Source: Enterococcus pallens ATCC BAA-351
Lineage (GTDB): Bacteria; Bacillota; Bacilli; Lactobacillales; Enterococcaceae
Length of the DNA: 64,000 nucleotides
Direction: 5' to 3'
Assembly (NCBI RefSeq): GCF_000407485.1
Contig: NZ_ASWD01000006.1
Span: 62,001 to 126,000, forward strand
Below the pieces are notes generated by a model. It saw only the letters and a list, made by a program, of their open reading frames with translations, was not told where the DNA came from and ran no database searches. Within the stretch, counting starts at the first letter, position 1; every line of letters begins with the position of its first letter. The position numbers and the translations under genes are program-made. Shown piece after piece: positions 1,883-37,781 of this stretch.

Positions 1883-3136
1883 CTACGGTAATCCTCGCGC
1901 TTCTTTGTCAATCACGTCTGCGACATCCATGAAAGGTGTTAAGCTAGCATTTCCAGCCTCCAAGGCGGCACCGGTCACCATAATACGCGAATTGCGATAA
2001 TAGTCTGGGGTGAATTCGCCCCAGGATTCCTGCGCAGCATCCTGCTGACTAAAGACCGAAAAACCTGCCTCCTGCACATATAGATAGGATTGGTTGGTTT
2101 CATCGTAGGGTTGCCATGTACCGATATCCGAGCCCTCCGGAAACATAAGCAGGGGTGTCTCGCCGATAATCGGCTCCACTTCTTCTTGGTACTTTATCGT
2201 GTCTGCTTGAATCATCGCTAAAGTAGAATGGTTAAAATTGATGGGTGCCCATGAATAAGAGGCCAACGTCCAGCCCGTTTCCTTTAAGCGATCGGCAACG
2301 GCTTTTGCCCGCTCCTTTTCCTTAGTGGTTTTCTTTGACGAAACATCATAGCCAAAGACACCTTCTGCTCCGGTTACCGCTAGGGCACCTTTTGATCCCT
2401 GATAAGAAAAATCCGGGTGCTTCCAGACAAATTGATCCACGATCGGTACCAGGTCATAATTCCCAGCGAGCTCATTATCCCCTACGCGGTAACAGCTTTT
2501 CACTCGCTTGTCTCGGTCTACCACTAATTTGGTGGACAGCCCTGCTTCCGCCATCTCATCATTGTAAGAAATATTTTCCTGTGACAGAATCAACGGTTTT
2601 TTTCCTTCAGGCAAAGCCACCCCGACAAATTGCCAGGTCCCGTCTTCCTTTTTTTTGACAATATCAGACAAACGCACCAATACATAATTTCTTTCATATA
2701 ATTCATTCAATAGACGAGTAAACTCCTCCGTCGTTAAATGATTCGCCTGATAATTCATTAAAGCAGCTGAACTAAAGGCTTTTTCTGGTAAAGCAACTAA
2801 CGGCTGAAACGACAAGTGTGAAAACAATGCAGGATCAGACCACATAATCGTTTCACTCTTTCGCAGCTTATAATCAAGTACCCGTTCTTCTGCTTCTTTA
2901 AACTCTTTCCCCTGAAGCAGCCTAATCGCTCCATCATAGTCATACTGCATCGCCAACGTATCCGCCTGCTTCAACTGTTCCTCTTCCTTTTCAGTTAAAG
3001 GATTAACAGTAGCTTGCTTTGGCTCTTGGCTTTGCCCTTCACTGCGATTGCTTAACCCTATTTTTATACTAACTCCTGTAGCCAACAGGATTGCTAGGAC
3101 CAACCCACAAACAACAATCATTTGACCTTTTTTCAT
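1883..3136 (-). CDS. Membrane-anchored polysaccharide deacetylase-like protein
   Basis: 417 residues from the chosen ATG at 3136 (MKKGQMIVV...). The upstream GGAGG sits 6 bases before it; an in-frame ATG at 3163 lies upstream of that site and is unlikely. A basic N-terminus and one membrane helix (about residues 5-24) suggest an uncleaved anchor. A linker and helical region follow, then a domain with the layout of extracellular NodB-like proteins (NYQANHLTTEEFTRLLNELY, then a strand with LILSQENISYND where active enzymes carry the DD metal motif). The canonical metal residues are not clear, so it may be inactive. Its terminator follows directly. Confidence 0.6.
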   Translation of the reverse strand: MKKGQMIVVCGLVLAILLATGVSIKIGLSNRSEGQSQEPKQATVNPLTEKEEEQLKQADTLAMQYDYDGAIRLLQGKEFKEAEERVLDYKLRKSETIMWSDPALFSHLSFQPLVALPEKAFSSAALMNYQANHLTTEEFTRLLNELYERNYVLVRLSDIVKKKEDGTWQFVGVALPEGKKPLILSQENISYNDEMAEAGLSTKLVVDRDKRVKSCYRVGDNELAGNYDLVPIVDQFVWKHPDFSYQGSKGALAVTGAEGVFGYDVSSKKTTKEKERAKAVADRLKETGWTLASYSWAPINFNHSTLAMIQADTIKYQEEVEPIIGETPLLMFPEGSDIGTWQPYDETNQSYLYVQEAGFSVFSQQDAAQESWGEFTPDYYRNSRIMVTGAALEAGNASLTPFMDVADVIDKEARGLP

Positions 3137-3263
3137 CATAATCCTCCAACAAAGAACTTTCATACATAATTTTAATGTAAAGTGTATAAAAAATATAGAG
3201 TAAATTGTGAAAAAGGTATAATTCTCTCTCTTTTTTAGATTTTGACAAGTACTTTTTTAAAAA

Positions 3264-3779
3264 TTACAGGATATACAGGTAAGCAATAAACAGCAAAATA
3301 AGGATTAACATTGCCAAAGAGACAATTTTGCCGTATTTGACTTGTTTTTCCCAATCATAGGTACGTCCCTTTAAGCGATCAATTTTTGTTTGAAAATAAA
3401 TCATTGGAACAAGATTAGTGGCTGCTGCTGCCAGAATTAGAAATTTAAAGCTTCGATCCGTACTGTTTGGCAACATAAACAGCAGAATCAGTAACAGCCC
3501 ACTAGTCATTATTGGTCCAAAAAATTGAAGCCGGCTCAATTGAGCTGCTTGTTCCTTTTTCTTTAAATCTTCCACCATATCCGACCCCTCCATTAGTAAT
3601 TCATCCAGTGATAGCTGATAGAGCTTCGCCAAACGAATCAAGCTTTCGATGTCTGGCATATTTCGTCCATTCTCCCAATTGGAAATGGAACGTGCTGAAA
3701 CAAATAGCTCTTCTGCCACCTCTGCCTGTGTCCATTCCTTTTCCAAACGTTTCTGTTTTAGTTGTTCACCGATCTTCAT
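3264..3779 (-). CDS. XRE-family transcriptional regulator with C-terminal membrane segments
   Basis: 171 residues. Residues 1-60 form a classic Cro/CI helix-turn-helix (KIGEQLKQKRLEKEWTQAEV, SARSISNWENGR). The C-terminal half has three hydrophobic segments (about 88-105, 110-127 and 150-170), so the DNA-binding domain is tethered at the membrane. Such proteins often sense envelope conditions and act nearby. It lies just downstream of the SipW-type operon on the same strand but is separated from it by a strong terminator. The target is unknown. The ATG at 3779 follows a GGAG site. Confidence 0.8.
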   Translation of the reverse strand: MKIGEQLKQKRLEKEWTQAEVAEELFVSARSISNWENGRNMPDIESLIRLAKLYQLSLDELLMEGSDMVEDLKKKEQAAQLSRLQFFGPIMTSGLLLILLFMLPNSTDRSFKFLILAAAATNLVPMIYFQTKIDRLKGRTYDWEKQVKYGKIVSLAMLILILLFIAYLYIL

Positions 3780-3885
3780 GTTTTTTCTCCATTCATTTAC
3801 TGCTTTTATCGTAAGGATAAATGAAGGATTTGTCTAGATATTTCAGGTAGAAAGGTCTTTCCGGTGTTGCTGCTACAAGGTTTAT

Positions 3886-3926
3886 AAAAAAAGAGACCAA
3901 AAAGCGATTGAGCTTTTCTGATCTCT
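3886..3926 (-). terminator. Terminator of the SipW/TasA-like operon
   Basis: On the minus strand a long, nearly perfect stem (AGAGATCA.AAAAGC paired with GCTTTTTGGTCTCT) is followed by seven Ts. It lies 20 bases beyond the second signal peptidase gene and marks the operon's end. Confidence 0.85.
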
Positions 3927-3945
3927 TGCAAGGGTATTTTTTGCT

Positions 3946-4434
3946 TTATCGTTTACGGTGACTATCCAAATAAAGCATGAGTAAAAACAAACTAATGATC
4001 ACTAATAATCCCAATGGTGTACTCGCAACTTGAATCATGTATCCGATCAGAGGTAATGTAAACACCACTTTTCCAAAGATTTGTTCATCGGTAATCGGCG
4101 GGTCAGCCGTATTGTTGGCATCTCCTTGAGTAATAAATTGGTTATTTTCGTGTGCAATCAGACGGTGCGTGGTTGTTCGGTTGTCTCCTGCTTGAATAAA
4201 AGTAAGAATATCGTTCTTCTCATAAGTAGACTCTGCATGGACAATCACTAAATCTCCTCGTGACAAAGTCGGCTCCATGCTTCCAGAGGCCACAACAGCA
4301 TAACCGTATCCCAGAACCATCGGAAAACGGCTGTCGTTTATATTTCTTTGGTATAAGCTGTACAGATTAAAGCCTAAAATCAGGACTAACAAAACAATCA
4401 CGAGGTTTTTCAGTCCATTAATGATTATTTTCAT
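3946..4434 (-). CDS. SipW-type (ER-like) signal peptidase I, second copy
   Basis: 162 residues from ATG 4434. AAAGGA lies 7 bases upstream and the start overlaps the preceding gene by 17 bases, implying translational coupling. One N-terminal helix is followed by the Ser box ASGSMEPTLSRGD (Ser52) and THRLIA (His90). A Ser-His rather than Ser-Lys dyad marks the ER/SipW class. ITQGDANNTADPP matches the conserved GDAN box, and a C-terminal membrane helix closes the protein. It probably removes SipW-dependent signals from one or both secreted proteins of the operon. It differs clearly from the first copy, which suggests divided substrates. Confidence 0.85.
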   Translation of the reverse strand: MKIIINGLKNLVIVLLVLILGFNLYSLYQRNINDSRFPMVLGYGYAVVASGSMEPTLSRGDLVIVHAESTYEKNDILTFIQAGDNRTTTHRLIAHENNQFITQGDANNTADPPITDEQIFGKVVFTLPLIGYMIQVASTPLGLLVIISLFLLMLYLDSHRKR

Positions 4435-5221
4435 TTTGCTGTCCTTTACGCAACCGCCAAATGATAAAGACAAAAAATAGAATCAAAAATCCGATGACAA
4501 TGCTGGCTTTCGCTAAGGATTCACCCGTTTGCGGATAAGCCCGCCATTTCTTATCCGAAAAGAAACCTGAGACTTTTTTATCATTTGGATTGGCATCTGC
4601 AAGTTTCCCCTGGCCTTCATCAGTTTCTACAATTACATTTAACGTTAGTTTGTAAATTAACGCTCTGGTTTCTGCTATTTCTCCATAATCCGTATCATCA
4701 GGATCCCGATTGCGTTCAAAGGGCCATTGCCATTGCAAGTTAATGGTCTCGCTCATCCCAGACTCCAGTTTTCTGGTATAGCTTAAAGGAAATGTACTAG
4801 ACCATAAATTCCAGTGGTCATTCCCTTGAGTAATCCAAGGACCATTAGCTACTCGCAGCTTAAAGTCCAAGGGCAGCGCATCAATATTCTGATCCTGTCC
4901 AATAACCGTGTATTCAATCGGATGCTCATATGTATTATGAATCGTAAAAGAATACTTGCCGCTAGTGCCCGGAGCAATCAATTTCTCACCATCTAATGCT
5001 GGACTGGCAACCGTATCTTCTATAATAGTAGCGAAAATATTGGTGTTGGTCATTTCCCCAGGCCGCCAACGTTCACCATATTGGTCTTCCACATAAACAA
5101 AGTCTTCAACTGCCGCATAGCTATAGGATGATTGAACAATCAAACAGAGGACAAATGCTGTGAAAAAGAAGATAAGCAACTGAAACTTAGCTAAGGGATA
5201 ATTGATTGGCTTTCCCATCAT
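4418..5221 (-). CDS. SipW-dependent-type exported protein with YPQTG cell-wall sorting signal
   Basis: 267 residues. After a hydrophobic signal segment (about 10-36) the extracellular part contains APGTSGKYSF and LQWQWPFER, two motifs also present in the neighbouring TasA-like protein, so both belong to one structural family. The C-terminus has a sortase-type signal: YPQTGE at 229-234, a hydrophobic stretch, then WRLRKG. Position one is Tyr instead of Leu. A wall-anchored minor subunit that roots a fibre is a reasonable inference. ATG at 5221 or the adjacent ATG at 5218 could be used; both follow GGAGGGG. Confidence 0.7.
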   Translation of the reverse strand: MMGKPINYPLAKFQLLIFFFTAFVLCLIVQSSYSYAAVEDFVYVEDQYGERWRPGEMTNTNIFATIIEDTVASPALDGEKLIAPGTSGKYSFTIHNTYEHPIEYTVIGQDQNIDALPLDFKLRVANGPWITQGNDHWNLWSSTFPLSYTRKLESGMSETINLQWQWPFERNRDPDDTDYGEIAETRALIYKLTLNVIVETDEGQGKLADANPNDKKVSGFFSDKKWRAYPQTGESLAKASIVIGFLILFFVFIIWRLRKGQQNENNH

Positions 5222-5241
5222 TTCTCCCCTCCTTTCAATCT

Positions 5242-5295
5242 CTCAAAAGGCTGTCTAGTTTAGACAACCTTTTGAGAAGCTGAAAGCAGCTTCTC
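5242..5295 (-). repeat. Two abutting hairpins between major and anchored subunit genes
   Basis: 5242-5275 forms a stem of CTCAAAAGG.TGTCT against its complement; 5274-5295 forms a perfect nine-base stem GAGAAGCTG/CAGCTTCTC with loop AAAG. Neither is followed by a T-run in the minus direction, where the ribosome site of the next gene begins. It could be a leaky attenuator or an mRNA-stabilising or processing element. Confidence 0.7.
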
Positions 5296-5310
5296 AAGAT
5301 AGAGTGTGGG

Positions 5311-6186
5311 TTAGTCGACTTGGACTACCGTATATTTCATACTCATTTTGAAACGTGGCATATCAACATGATCAGTTGCGATACTAGCTGCTCTATTTCC
5401 AACAACCGTATCGTTTTTATCCACTGGAATTAAGGTTACATTCGCACGTTCAAAAGGCCATTCCCATACAATTTTTAACCCCATTCTAGCTAACTTATCT
5501 TGTTTAGTGGTCAAAGAATCTCCTGGATAAATAGTCTCAGAGCTGGCTGCATTTTTTATTGCATCATTCAGACCATTAAGTTGAGCAATTCCATTATCTA
5601 CAGCCGATTCAGTTGAAGCCGAACTTCCTTTCTCAACAACACCATCATAAATTTTGGTTGTATATTTATCAGCACCAGCTTCAGCAGCGTTGTATTTGTA
5701 CACAGAAAAACGTAGAGGTAACCAATTGTCTCCAGAAGTACCATCCTCTGCGTCGTTCCAGTTTCCAAGATATTTACCAAAAACATTATCACCAGCATAT
5801 TCTCCGTAAGCATAACTTACCTCAAAAGCAGCTTCAACATTTTTTAACTTGGCTTCTGAAATACTTGGTAAAACTAGAACCTCCCCTTTAGTACCAGGTG
5901 CAATTACATTTTGACCATCAGAAGGATCTGTAACATTTTTGACTGTAGTCTGTTGTTCATCATTTAAGTACGCTGTATCAAACATATCCAATTCCTGTGT
6001 TTCTTCTGTTAATCCCCATCTCGCTACGCGTGCACTATCACTAGCCTCACCAATCGTCCCAGTATACTTCGCCAACGTGCCGCCCAAAAGACTCGTTGTC
6101 AGCAAAACTGCCCCAAACAATAAAACAGCGGTTTTCACAGACTTGTTGCTTTTACGCTGTGTAGTTGTTTCTTTTTCCTTACTCAT
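5311..6186 (-). CDS. TasA/CalY-like exported protein (probable major fibre or matrix subunit)
   Basis: 291 residues. A long basic N-terminus (about 20 residues) and hydrophobic core end in LLGGTLAKYTGTIG, resembling the SipW-cognate signal of TasA (GGTWAAF). The mature part has APGTKGEV, a central insertion rich in Asp/Ser/Gly, and IVWEWPFER near the C-terminus. TasA and CalY (camelysin) form biofilm fibres in Bacillus and are processed by SipW. The gene lies between a SipW-type peptidase and the anchored relative. There is no sorting signal here. The fibre function is inferred from family and context. Confidence 0.7.
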   Translation of the reverse strand: MSKEKETTTQRKSNKSVKTAVLLFGAVLLTTSLLGGTLAKYTGTIGEASDSARVARWGLTEETQELDMFDTAYLNDEQQTTVKNVTDPSDGQNVIAPGTKGEVLVLPSISEAKLKNVEAAFEVSYAYGEYAGDNVFGKYLGNWNDAEDGTSGDNWLPLRFSVYKYNAAEAGADKYTTKIYDGVVEKGSSASTESAVDNGIAQLNGLNDAIKNAASSETIYPGDSLTTKQDKLARMGLKIVWEWPFERANVTLIPVDKNDTVVGNRAASIATDHVDMPRFKMSMKYTVVQVD

Positions 6187-6219
6187 TTCTTTTCTTCCTT
6201 TCCTTACTTCCCCTTTAAT

Positions 6220-6834
6220 TTATGATCTGACTTCCTTGCGGCGCGTGAGACGCTTCGCGACAAAGTCATACCCCCAAAATAATAGTATTGGAATTCCAAT
6301 ACATATCAGCATGCCTAATGGTGTTCGTGAGAATAAAATGAAATCTCCAACCTTGGGCACACGCTGCATAAACTTACCAATGATATTTTTCTTTTGAACC
6401 GGATCTAAATCCTCAGTATCATTGGCATCTCCTTTAGTGGTGAATGTATCGGTTTCCTCGTTGTAGCCAACGATTCGGTGAATGACCGCTGTTTGATTAT
6501 TCTTAAACATGATCACATCGCCAACCTCTAAAGTGTCTGGATTGGTTTGCTTGGTAATTACCATATCACCTGCTCGAATAGCATCTGGCTCCCCAGTATT
6601 CATGGAATTCGTCACAACCGCCATCGGTGCATAGCCCATCACCGTTGGAATTTCATCTGGATTCAAGCTTCCTTTTACGATAATCACTAAGTTCGCAATC
6701 AAAATCGGTAACAACAACAGGCATATAACAATGGCTATCCATCCTGTAATCCTTTGTGGCAGCGATTTTTGTGATTTCTTTCGCTTTTCTTTACTTTCCG
6801 TTACCTCGACGTTGTTCTCTTTGTGAATTTCCAT
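6220..6834 (-). CDS. SipW-type (ER-like) signal peptidase I, first copy
   Basis: 204 residues from ATG 6834, seven bases after GGAGG; an in-frame TTG at 6852 overlaps the ribosome site and was not chosen. The order is a charged cytoplasmic tail (1-28), a membrane helix (31-54), VVTNSM with Ser77, VIHRIVGY with His119, the TKGDANDTED box, and a C-terminal membrane helix. The Ser-His dyad and GDAN box define the SipW subgroup rather than housekeeping SipS/T. It is the first gene of the operon, directly upstream of the TasA-like substrate. Confidence 0.85.
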   Translation of the reverse strand: MEIHKENNVEVTESKEKRKKSQKSLPQRITGWIAIVICLLLLPILIANLVIIVKGSLNPDEIPTVMGYAPMAVVTNSMNTGEPDAIRAGDMVITKQTNPDTLEVGDVIMFKNNQTAVIHRIVGYNEETDTFTTKGDANDTEDLDPVQKKNIIGKFMQRVPKVGDFILFSRTPLGMLICIGIPILLFWGYDFVAKRLTRRKEVRS

Positions 6835-7402
6835 TTCACCTTCCTCCAACAAAAGCGAGCACCCCCTTCTTACAAAACAAAAGTACCTTATCTAATAAGT
6901 ATTATCTGTCTCAACTTCCCCAGTAAAGATCTAATTGACTACTTATTCTTATACAATAATAATAATAATATAACAATTTTTAAAAAACAAGATGTTTATC
7001 GAATTTTAAAACATTTGAATATTCCATTTCTATAATAAGAAGGCATCATTAGGTTATTATAAAAATCTATTTTGAATATCCTTATGACAAATACCAATCT
7101 CTTCTAGTTTAGAAAGGTCTTTTTTTCGCTAATAGACATTTAGCAAGCAGTAAATGCTATTATTTTAAGTCATATATTCTTTTAATTTATATTTTTTAAA
7201 GTTTTTAAGTATAACAGGAATTATAACTAGCTTCGACTACCAATAGATGTAACTTTTTGCTATTTATTCTCACCTTTCACTCATTTCAATCTATCTAAGC
7301 CCTTTATTTACCTTGAATCCACTGATTAAACTACTAATCTTACTATTTATCCAAAAAACAACTATCGTTTTTTTAAGTTCCTTTTTTACAATTTTAAATA
7401 AC
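6835..7402. other. AT-rich intergenic region upstream of the SipW operon
   Basis: About 570 bases with no convincing gene on either strand. It must hold the operon promoter; several TATAAT-like boxes exist on the minus strand, but none has a clear -35 partner. A five-unit ATA trinucleotide repeat lies near 6955-6972. The length and base composition suggest a heavily regulated promoter. Confidence 0.6.
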
Positions 7403-7437
7403 AAAAAAGCATCCTCTGAATAGAGAATGCCTTTTTT
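7403..7437 (-). terminator. Terminator of asd
   Basis: A nine-base imperfect stem (GCATCCTCT/AGAGAATGC) is flanked by A and T runs. It lies 10 bases beyond the asd stop codon and could also act on the opposite strand. Confidence 0.8.
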
Positions 7438-7446
7438 CGATTCTGT

Positions 7447-8481
7447 TTACAGTAAATCCATTTCTACCATTTTCTCTGCGATTTGAACAGAGTTCCAAGC
7501 GGCACCTTTTAATAGGTTGTCTGAGACTACCCACATGTGCACGCCAGTATCTACATCTAAGTCTTTACGAATCCGTCCTACGAAGGTTTCCTTTTTGCCA
7601 ACGCTGTTTAAAGCTTGTGGATAAATTTGTTGACTTGGATCATCTTCTAAAACAGCTCCAGGGAAATTAGCTATCACGTCTTGGATTTCTTTCACGGTTG
7701 CTGGTTTTTCTGTTTCGATATAAATAGATTCAGAATGACCCGACAGGACTGGAATTCGCACGCAGGTTGCTGAGACCTGGATGCTATCGTCTGACATAAT
7801 TTTCTTAGTTTCGTTTACCATTTTCCACTCTTCGTAGGTATAGCCTTCTTTGGCGAATACATCGATTTGCGGCAAGGCATTGAAGGCCAATGGATAATGC
7901 TTCTTATCTCCCCCACATGGCAGGATTTCAGCTGTCATGGGTTCATCGTTTAAGAAAGCTTGCGTTTGGGTCTTTAATTCTTCCATTGCTTGATTGCCAG
8001 CACCTGATACAGCTTGATAGGTTGAAACAATGATTCGTTTCAGTCCGAACGCTTTACGAACAGGTTCTAAAGCCACCATCATTTGAATGGTTGAGCAGTT
8101 AGGGTTGGCAATAATTCCTTTATGATCTCGTAATGCTTCAGGATTTACTTCAGGCACAACTAAAGGAACTTCTTTATCCATCCGGAAGTGACTAGTGTTG
8201 TCTACCACGACTGCTCCACGTTTTACTGCTTCAGGAGCGAATTTAGCAGAAATACCGCCGCCTGCTGAGAACAAAGCCAAATCAACGCCTTCAAAGGATT
8301 CAGGCACTAATTCTTCAATGATCTTGGTTTCTCCATTAAAGGTTAATTCTTTACCTGCTGAACGGATGGAAGCAAGGAACTTCACTTCCCCTAAAGACAT
8401 GGATGTTTCTTCTAACATTTTGATCATTTGTGTACCAACAGCACCAGAGGCACCTACGACAGCCACATTGACTTTTCTCAT
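7447..8481 (-). CDS. asd: Aspartate-semialdehyde dehydrogenase
   Basis: 344 residues from ATG 8481 ([13 protein letters not shown]). The start has a weak AAAGAG site. The NADP-binding loop VGASGAVG (about 9-16) and the catalytic cysteine in NPNCSTIQM (Cys129) are intact, as is the dimerisation domain with [16 protein letters not shown]. The enzyme reduces aspartyl phosphate to the semialdehyde, feeding lysine/diaminopimelate, threonine and methionine synthesis. Its length is typical. In this window asd stands alone with its own terminator; no dapA follows. Confidence 0.95.
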
Positions 8482-36342: not shown

Positions 36343-37041
36343 CTATTCATTCTCATTAATCATTGGTCCTGATGTGTAGTCTGCAGTGATAAACAACCGC
36401 TCATCAGTCATCCCTAAGCTATCAATTGGATAGCAGGTATATAAAAGTGCAACCCGTTTGTCTCGTTGATAGATCAAATCGTTGATTGCTTTATCGTCTT
36501 TATTTGCGACTTCTTTATTGGAAACAGTAAATACATAATTGCCATAGGTTGTCTGGATCTGGATCTCATCACCGACGTTAATCATCGCTAATTTTCCAAA
36601 GCCATCAACATTGTGGCCGCCAATTAAGCTAGTTCCCTGTTCACCAGGATAAACCGAGCCCATAAATTGTCCGGCACCTAAACGTAAAATTTCATCAGTA
36701 TCTCCAAAATACAACGGAACATTCAAATCGATGGGTGAAACAACTACCTTACCATACTGCTGTCCGCCAACTGGATAAGTCAGTTCACTAGATGGAAGTT
36801 CGTTGTTTTCATTAACCTTTGCTTGAACTTCTTCTTCTTTAACAACTGTAAAATCTTCAGCAGCTTGAGCGTCAAATGTCGGTGCATCTGTTAGCAAGAA
36901 TAATTGTATGGTTGATGTCACAAATTGAATGACAGGTTTTCCGATTACGTACATGAGAGAGTATCCGATTACTAAAAAAACAACTGGGGCAACGATTGCC
37001 GCCCCAAGTCTCTTTAGCCAAGAAGTTTTCTTAGGCAACAC
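36343..37041 (-). CDS. Sortase
   Basis: 232 residues, N-terminal membrane anchor (about 15-35). The catalytic set is His143 in GGHNVDGF, Cys203 in LLYTCYP and Arg215 in TDERLF, so it should be active. The class (A or D) cannot be settled by eye. GTG start at 37041 overlaps the upstream gene by 11 bases without its own clear ribosome site, implying coupling. The obvious substrate is that upstream surface protein. A sortase as second gene of a polysaccharide operon is unusual. Confidence 0.85.
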   Translation of the reverse strand: MLPKKTSWLKRLGAAIVAPVVFLVIGYSLMYVIGKPVIQFVTSTIQLFLLTDAPTFDAQAAEDFTVVKEEEVQAKVNENNELPSSELTYPVGGQQYGKVVVSPIDLNVPLYFGDTDEILRLGAGQFMGSVYPGEQGTSLIGGHNVDGFGKLAMINVGDEIQIQTTYGNYVFTVSNKEVANKDDKAINDLIYQRDKRVALLYTCYPIDSLGMTDERLFITADYTSGPMINENE

Positions 37042-37639
37042 GCTTTTTAGCTACGACAAACGCACCTGCTGCGAGTACCAATAAACTTCCGAATGATGCA
37101 AAACTAACCGCGTAATTAGCGCCAGTTTGTTTCACTGCGCCACCAGAAGCATAAACAGTGTTTTTGCCTGGAGTTACAGTTTTAACATTAGCTGCACCGT
37201 TGTTTCCAGTTCTTTCAGAAATAGTTACTGAACCTGGAGCAAAAGTTGCAGTTAGACCCAACGCATTCGCTGCTGAAGAAACAATGTTCTTCAAATCATT
37301 GATCACATTACGTGGGAACAATTTGATTAACTCAGGTAATGAGTTAACATTTGAAACATTCACGTTTTGAGCAGCTGCAATTGCGCGTGCTTGTTGAATG
37401 TAACCAACAACCGCATCAACCTGTGCAGTAGAGACATCGTGTTGCTTCAAGTAGTTTTCTGCTTGTGCACGATCTGAACTTGCAAAAGCAAAATTCTTGC
37501 CACTTACAGTAACGCCTTTGTCCATCTCTGTTAAAATACGTTGCTCGTCTGCTGTGATCGCGCCATCCGCGTGTGCAGAAGGAGCAGCTAATAAGAACAC
37601 TGCCATTACTGCTAAAACAACACTAACAAGTTTTTTCAT
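37031..37639 (-). CDS. Secreted surface protein with VKQTG sorting-like signal, first gene of EPS operon
   Basis: 202 residues from ATG 37639, after AGGAGG; codons further upstream precede the ribosome site. A signal peptide (about 1-23, cut near SAHA-DG) is followed by about 140 residues of Ala/Asn/Val-rich sequence with helical character. The C-terminus has VKQTG at 169-173, a hydrophobic stretch and KKR. It lacks the usual Leu-Pro, so the signal is non-canonical, presumably read by the overlapping sortase. Its role in the capsule is unknown. Confidence 0.7.
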   Translation of the reverse strand: MKKLVSVVLAVMAVFLLAAPSAHADGAITADEQRILTEMDKGVTVSGKNFAFASSDRAQAENYLKQHDVSTAQVDAVVGYIQQARAIAAAQNVNVSNVNSLPELIKLFPRNVINDLKNIVSSAANALGLTATFAPGSVTISERTGNNGAANVKTVTPGKNTVYASGGAVKQTGANYAVSFASFGSLLVLAAGAFVVAKKRVA

Positions 37640-37781
37640 TCGACAGACCTCCTTTTTTAGTTTTATTTGGAAAAGAGTTAGACTCTGAATCCCGTGATTT
37701 AATGCGCAATTAAGTAAAAATAACCCCCTGACCAAATTGTACACAGGCCAAACTATGCCATTTTAATTAATCACTGTTCAC

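Follow-up and report, generated by a model that had tools for sequence, protein, structure and literature searches.

What is known of TasA-type fibres comes from a small number of models in Bacillus and clostridia, each with one dedicated signal peptidase, and how the fibres are held to the cell is debated. What, then, would an operon of four genes do with two such peptidases? The question is raised by a locus of Enterococcus pallens ATCC BAA-351, at positions 3946 to 6834 of the 64,000-nucleotide stretch analyzed here (contig NZ_ASWD01000006.1, positions 62,001 to 126,000; hereafter the window), where two SipW-type peptidase genes flank the genes of two related TasA-like secreted proteins, one of which carries a wall-sorting signal. 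Our analysis indicates that this arrangement is real, conserved and apparently undescribed: a variant of the SipW/TasA fibre system that has two peptidases and a member anchored to the wall. We consider it probable that the operon of the window is a reduced form of a conserved one whose products build a wall-fixed, TasA-like donor-strand fibre.

The operon is read from 6834 to 3946 on the minus strand, where all its features lie. The first gene, SipW1 (6220..6834), codes for an endoplasmic reticulum (ER)-type (Ser/His) signal peptidase. It is followed by the major TasA-like subunit (5311..6186; 291 aa, C-terminus -VVQVD), by a wall-anchorable TasA-like protein of 267 aa with a conventional signal peptide (4418..5221; hereafter the anchored protein) and by SipW2 (3946..4434), a second ER-type signal peptidase. 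The last two genes overlap by 17 nt, the start of SipW2 being taken as the ATG at 4434 (the mechanical open reading frame begins at a TTG, 4473). An intrinsic terminator ends the operon (3886..3927), its hairpin at 3891-3927 running into a T7 tract at 3886-3892, two T of which are paired. This hairpin has a minimum free energy (MFE) of -18.4 kcal/mol (z -4.0), equalled in none of 200 shuffles, and one general scan of the window did not list it. The promoter scan was uninformative, with 15 sites against 13.2 expected. Open reading frames and folding confirm the order proposed in the first-pass annotation of this stretch, that is, SipW, TasA-like protein, relative with a YPQTG signal, SipW and terminator. 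That annotation had omitted a hairpin between the major and anchored genes, stronger than the terminator (z -6.6 vs -4.0), and the one or two extra genes that relatives carry after SipW2.

Related loci were gathered in several samples. Six of 20 genomes in the genus sample carry eight full-length homologues of the anchored protein, and one contig scan returned 25 loci, four of them enterococcal and already among the eight. The other 21 are labelled Clostridia, Lachnospiraceae, Oscillospiraceae, Ruminococcus, Eubacterium, Erysipelotrichaceae, Pelotomaculum, Mageeibacillus and Bacilli. Five more loci came from a phylum sample of 398 genomes, surveyed with the anchored profile; at most five candidates per genome were scored in it, and its 6 of 398 genomes is therefore a lower bound. 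One further locus (L026) came from another genus of the family. The total is 35 distinct loci, L023, L024, L025 and L029 being the same places as L075, L074, L073 and L072 and counted once.

By per-gene profiles, a SipW gene stands on both sides of the secreted genes in 30 of the 35 loci, and the four-gene operon is thus not a chance arrangement. The 30 include L086, with no detected major, L096, where the place of the anchored protein is taken by one of 1001 aa, and L135, with a second major gene between the operon halves (2365-8433). Two loci have the upstream SipW only (L027, L028) and three the downstream one only (L026, L091, L137). As a control, 16 of 18 loci with the TasA/CalY camelysin family PF12389 have a single SipW; L156 has two side by side and L157 none. 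The first-pass annotation had allowed that a survey might find peptidases and secreted proteins not consistently linked, and these counts run the other way.

A gene for a further TasA-like protein, here called minor1, follows SipW2 in 31 of the 35 loci; outside Enterococcus it is recognized weakly (15-64 bits, 10-23 in a later scan), aided by position and signal. Since the sequences of L086 and L135 end just past SipW2, loss of minor1 is established for the window and the syntenic L072 only. The syntenic L073 retains both minor1 and a second such gene, minor2. The window has neither, and its four genes are accordingly a reduced form of a six-gene operon. A complete paralogous operon (L022) lies on another contig (C1) of the E. 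pallens genome.

Both peptidases of the window are members of TIGR02228 (SipW1 86.0, SipW2 86.6 bits; cut-off 51.85), and both miss the cut-off of 190 of the Bacillus SipW equivalog NF046067 (79.2 and 77.2 bits). The nearest relatives of SipW1 are found in Enterococcus sp. 665A, Enterococcus sp. 669A and E. hulanensis. The two window peptidases, like all 82 distinct sequences aligned, have Ser/His(/Asp) instead of Ser/Lys, residues whose catalytic roles we take as generally understood. Ser77, His119 and Asp142 of SipW1 are kept in 32 of 32 aligned SipW1, and the corresponding Ser, His and Asp in 33 of 33 aligned SipW2.

This conservation bears on the idea that one of the two SipWs is mainly a non-proteolytic assembly factor. 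The SipA proteins of some streptococcal sortase pili are signal-peptidase-like, and the window offers a parallel in a second peptidase-like gene within a surface-fibre operon, next to a sortase-anchored partner. A dead, chaperone-only peptidase is nevertheless disfavoured because the three residues are kept in all 65 SipW1 and SipW2, and the window's major subunit, moreover, has no sorting signal. Such a SipA-like role seems very unlikely.

Do the two peptidases, then, represent one lineage or two? We built two trees, in both of which the labels SipW1 and SipW2 were assigned by gene position and not by sequence; both include four of the 12 SipWs of a repeated element of the E. pallens genome, described below, and in the second a duplicate row of the L096 downstream SipW was not counted. 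In the first tree (59 SipWs) the positional labels need two changes, the minimum possible, against 22 on shuffling, and the long-branched SipW2 of L026 and L091 fall outside the SipW2 group. The second tree covered additional loci and was given 13 outsiders, the SipWs of PF12389 (TasA/CalY-type) loci. It splits the SipWs of two-peptidase-type operons from those of PF12389 loci (support 100/97) and places all 33 SipW2 rows on one side of a branch (support 100/95). SipW1 forms the remainder, with low support (a single origin in just 28% of bootstrap trees), and the SipW1 of L096 and of L027/L028 branch close to the base. Pairwise distances of SipW1 and SipW2 correlate over 30 loci (r 0.88; none of 999 permutations as high) and over the 24 non-Enterococcus loci (r 0.89), a correlation to which shared ancestry of the hosts contributes. 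We see in SipW1 and SipW2 two distinct lineages that are inherited together and stand apart from the peptidases of TasA/CalY operons.

The signal peptides of the secreted proteins fall into classes along the same lines. A SipW-type motif was seen after the hydrophobic core of all 33 majors, all 31 minor1 and all 7 minor2 proteins, counts that leave out L086, L135 and a second minor1-like match in L094 and that are partly circular for major and minor1, most of which were recognized by profiles including the signal region. By reading, GTxAKY occurs in 31 of the 33 majors and GTxA in none of the 31 minor1. The motif is present in one of 32 anchored proteins (L080), where it lies well past the membrane segment and not at the signal; the signals of the enterococcal anchored proteins end, by eye, in sites like those of ordinary signal peptidase I. 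The gene directly after SipW1 thus has one class of signal and that after SipW2 another, and the anchored protein belongs to neither class. We read this as a correlation between signal class and peptidase position that would agree with substrate choice and is no proof of it.

The first-pass annotation had proposed that each peptidase serves its own substrate. Position-specific lineages and two signal classes are indeed seen, but the pairing of SipW2 with the anchored protein finds no support: we reject it as the main role of SipW2, given the near absence of the motif from anchored proteins. A likelier second substrate is the minor subunit whose gene, in most relatives, comes directly after SipW2; the window lacks that gene.

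If either SipW could process every SipW-type substrate of the same fibre, a second copy might be kept for dosage alone. Single-peptidase loci, whether upstream (L027, L028) or downstream (L026, L091, L137), keep major and minor-type genes, as such redundancy would predict, and the window retains SipW2 without an adjoining minor gene. Position-locked lineages co-inherited over 30 loci argue against it, however, and the signal consensus differs between major and minor1, which points to a division of labour. We regard simple redundancy as rather unlikely.

The two secreted proteins are themselves related. Comparison of the major and anchored profiles (alignments of 64 and 20 rows) gave a probability of 99 and an E value of 2.2e-18 over 146 columns. 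The anchored protein has the motif pair APGTSG and WQWPFER..D..DT..G, which recurs in similar form in the major. Neither protein has a Pfam family above cut-off. Membership of PF12389 and of the TapA family (TIGR04087) was considered and rejected, the major and anchored proteins giving no match to either at E<=1. PF12389 is also absent from the 64 rows of the major alignment at E<=0.1, and the two PF12389 matches of the E. pallens genome, one of them over cut-off, lie elsewhere.

When structures were predicted, TasA-superfamily filament subunits ranked first for both proteins, weakly so for the major. Archaeal AbpA (7ueg) is the best Foldseek match to the anchored model, and Foldseek gave no match to the major model at E<=0.001. 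Sequence searches of solved structures returned no rows for the major; for the anchored protein there were four, at E 0.1-0.14, of which three align with the end that carries the sorting signal.

The sorting signal of the anchored protein (4421..4537) consists of YPQTG, a hydrophobic segment and an RLRKG tail; TIGR01167 (LPXTG_anchor) is passed narrowly (16.9 bits vs a cut-off of 15.9), and PF00746 is present in two relatives (P0130 and P0132). Sortases (PF04203) have 19 matches in the genome, none within the operon. With a major that ends in -VQVD and has no sorting signal, and no sortase match in the operon, the locus differs from class C sortase pili. Folds, homology and sorting signals support the earlier idea of a SipW-dependent, TasA-like fibre system with a relative that can be attached covalently to the wall.

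The N-terminus of the major is the part most reminiscent of TasA. Residues 1-39 (6070..6186), ending in ...LLGGTLA, were identified by motif scan as a SipW-type signal peptide, the cleavage site being presumably where analogy with TasA would put it. The following putative donor-strand segment, KYTGTIGEASDSARVARW (6016..6069), stands out by conservation in the alignment, in which mature residues K1, Y2 and A16 are invariant among the 64 majors, as is Q250 farther on. Q(V/I/L)(D/N) stands at or near the C-terminus of 29 of 33 majors and, among the minor1 rows, of 24 of 32 (one being the second L094 match). The major thus keeps a putative TasA-like donor-strand N-terminus, a conserved segment that would mediate polymerization by donor strands. 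The anchored protein lacks a SipW-type signal and seems to start past the donor strand.

Divergence among close relatives is uneven. Between the window and the syntenic L072 and L073, identity is 84% for SipW1, 74-79% for the anchored protein and 68-75% for SipW2. The signal and donor-like segment of the major are 90-92% identical and its remainder 34-35%, less than the 52% found against the non-syntenic L074. Assembly parts would be conserved and the exposed part variable, as expected for a surface fibre under diversifying pressure.

The same pattern can be read another way. Related wall-bound and secreted proteins with a common beta-sandwich might be monomeric binders, of an adhesin or carbohydrate-binding type, that form no fibre at all; the exposed part of the major evolves fast, and beta-sandwich domains of the carbohydrate-binding and glycosidase types are also ranked high in the comparison with the anchored model. 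It is, however, the signal and donor-like segment that is best conserved in the major, and filament subunits (TasA, bundling pilin) top the structure rankings of both models, with pilins recurring in the lists. Monomeric binders are in our view quite unlikely, less so than a dead peptidase.

The RNA between the two secreted-protein genes adds a further conserved feature. In the window, a 25-pair long stem and an overlapping 11-bp stem (5229..5297) share bases and are mutually exclusive (MFE -41.8). In all six Enterococcus loci with two SipWs, the longest gap within the operon is the one between the major and anchored genes (83-112 nt), and each time it folds much better than shuffled sequence (z -4.6 to -6.4). 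Across these loci 98.7% of the cells of the stem are paired, against 35-58% in slid controls, and five pairs are changed on both sides; 11 of 500 shuffles scored as high for such changes and none of 500 for the covariation score. A GC-rich hairpin with a GTGG loop occurs in 12 of the 19 clostridial-type loci folded (whole-gap z -2.9 to -6.3), a set without L086 and L135, and this form was not seen in L080, L084, L085, L087, L089, L091 and L095. The gap of L026 folds ordinarily (z 0.3), and those of L027 (23 nt) and L028 (16 nt) are too short. Rfam gave no family at gathering score in eight loci, with two sub-threshold rows in the window. Because no U-run follows the hairpin in the window, we infer a processing or stabilizing element rather than a terminator; lying after the major gene, it may set stoichiometry.

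These observations can be joined in a mechanism, which we infer as a whole from gene anatomy. SipW1 would cut the GTxA|KY-type signal off the major subunit, freeing an N-terminal donor strand that would insert into the next subunit. The anchored protein, with the same predicted fold, an ordinary signal and seemingly no donor strand, would accept a strand and give none, while its YPQTG signal would tie it to peptidoglycan as the wall-side end of the fibre. The usual substrate of SipW2 would be the adjacent minor subunit, in E. pallens possibly supplied by the complete operon L022, and the hairpin would keep the major in excess over base and peptidases. A bolder generalization is that these loci represent a widespread, distinct class of Gram-positive fibre, capped at the wall by a sortase-anchored, acceptor-only subunit, in which donor-strand filaments of a TasA-like subunit would be served by early-diverged SipW1 (shaft) and SipW2 (minor end), each freeing the donor strand of its own subunit class, so that the timing of cleavage would order assembly; this we offer tentatively, as something that may well prove wrong.

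Several neighbouring and side features deserve mention. An HTH_3 regulator gene with a membrane tail (by eye) lies downstream of and outside the operon (3264-3779), as it does at both syntenic loci. A LytTR response regulator and a GHKL histidine kinase adjoin the L022 operon (L022:62-2078), and look-alikes, by eye, adjoin L023 (L023:601-2620), recalling BsaRS of Clostridium perfringens. The genes between the operon halves of L135 resemble homoserine kinase and threonine synthase (names by eye). Elsewhere in the window (36343-37744), a sortase-family gene (match 36379-36741) adjoins a small secreted-looking protein at the end of an apparent polysaccharide gene cluster (22-36 kb, by eye).

The E. 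pallens genome (5.44 Mb) has 20 TIGR02228 matches, 16 of them over cut-off: two in the window, two in L022 and 12 in a repeated element. This element, of about ten genes, occurs at 12 places (L030-L041; e.g. L032:2497-11992, L035:1642-11812) and represents a further SipW surface system, different in kind from the operon. Besides a SipW of its own (314-356 aa) it codes for an LPQTG-type protein and for a secreted-type protein 414-445 aa long. In the copy scanned with Pfam, two other proteins match PF12389 weakly or at the borderline, one has a glucosaminidase domain and one is weakly DivIVA-like; an ordinary signal peptidase I is encoded as well. Ten of the 12 stretches have a tyrosine integrase beside the element, and those of L033 and L040 begin too late to tell. 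Inverted repeats for phase variation near the integrase were considered and found unconvincing: a single 15-nt pair (87%) occurs in two paralogous copies, with one arm inside a gene, and similar repeats were not found in a third stretch, which has no integrase.

How does the operon compare with described systems? The first-pass annotation knew of no two-peptidase version, and none is described among the matches listed in the open-licence literature on SipW, TasA, sortase and camelysin. With tapA-sipW-tasA of B. subtilis (PMC9674648, PMC10151520) the operon shares a SipW-type peptidase, a subunit for which TasA ranks first, if weakly, a SipW-type signal followed by a donor-strand segment, putative in the window, and an accessory protein thought to stand at a fibre end; the B. 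subtilis system has one SipW, the window operon and 30 of the 35 loci two. TapA, itself processed by SipW, donates a strand but is unable to accept one (PMC9674648, PMC10151520); the anchored protein of the window has an ordinary signal and a sorting signal and seemingly only accepts. Unlike their B. subtilis counterparts, the window proteins match neither PF12389 nor TIGR04087. The sipW-tasA/calY/capP system of B. cereus likewise has two TasA-like proteins and a third, wall-associated assembly protein, but one SipW, and its authors term it sortase-independent; CapP has DUF4047 and repeats and, as described, no TasA-like domain (PMC13082335).

The sipW-bsaABCRSD locus of C. perfringens also has sipW upstream of the major fibre protein, a predicted terminator directly 3' of the major gene bsaA, with a short sipW-bsaA message detected, and a two-component system, comparable to the LytTR and GHKL genes beside L022. 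It differs in having one SipW in the described operon, in a BsaA without LPXTG and in an adjacent srtB whose deletion is reported to have no effect (PMC7395162). Archaeal bundling pili (AbpA, 7ueg) and Sulfolobus threads are donor-strand filaments, as proposed for the window operon, but archaeal (PMC9715654). Sortase-assembled Gram-positive pili share an LPXTG-type protein as the likely wall-side end and differ in that the window operon has no sortase gene and its major no sorting signal.

Occurring in enterococci and in uncultured gut and rumen Clostridia, this type of operon brings three questions within experimental reach: by what means a cell with a single membrane tethers a donor-strand fibre, why a fibre subunit needs a signal peptidase dedicated to it and whether cleavage controls the order of assembly. 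To the fibre systems described so far it would add covalent attachment at the wall end, a second lineage of peptidases and a conserved hairpin in the RNA, which possibly sets subunit ratios.

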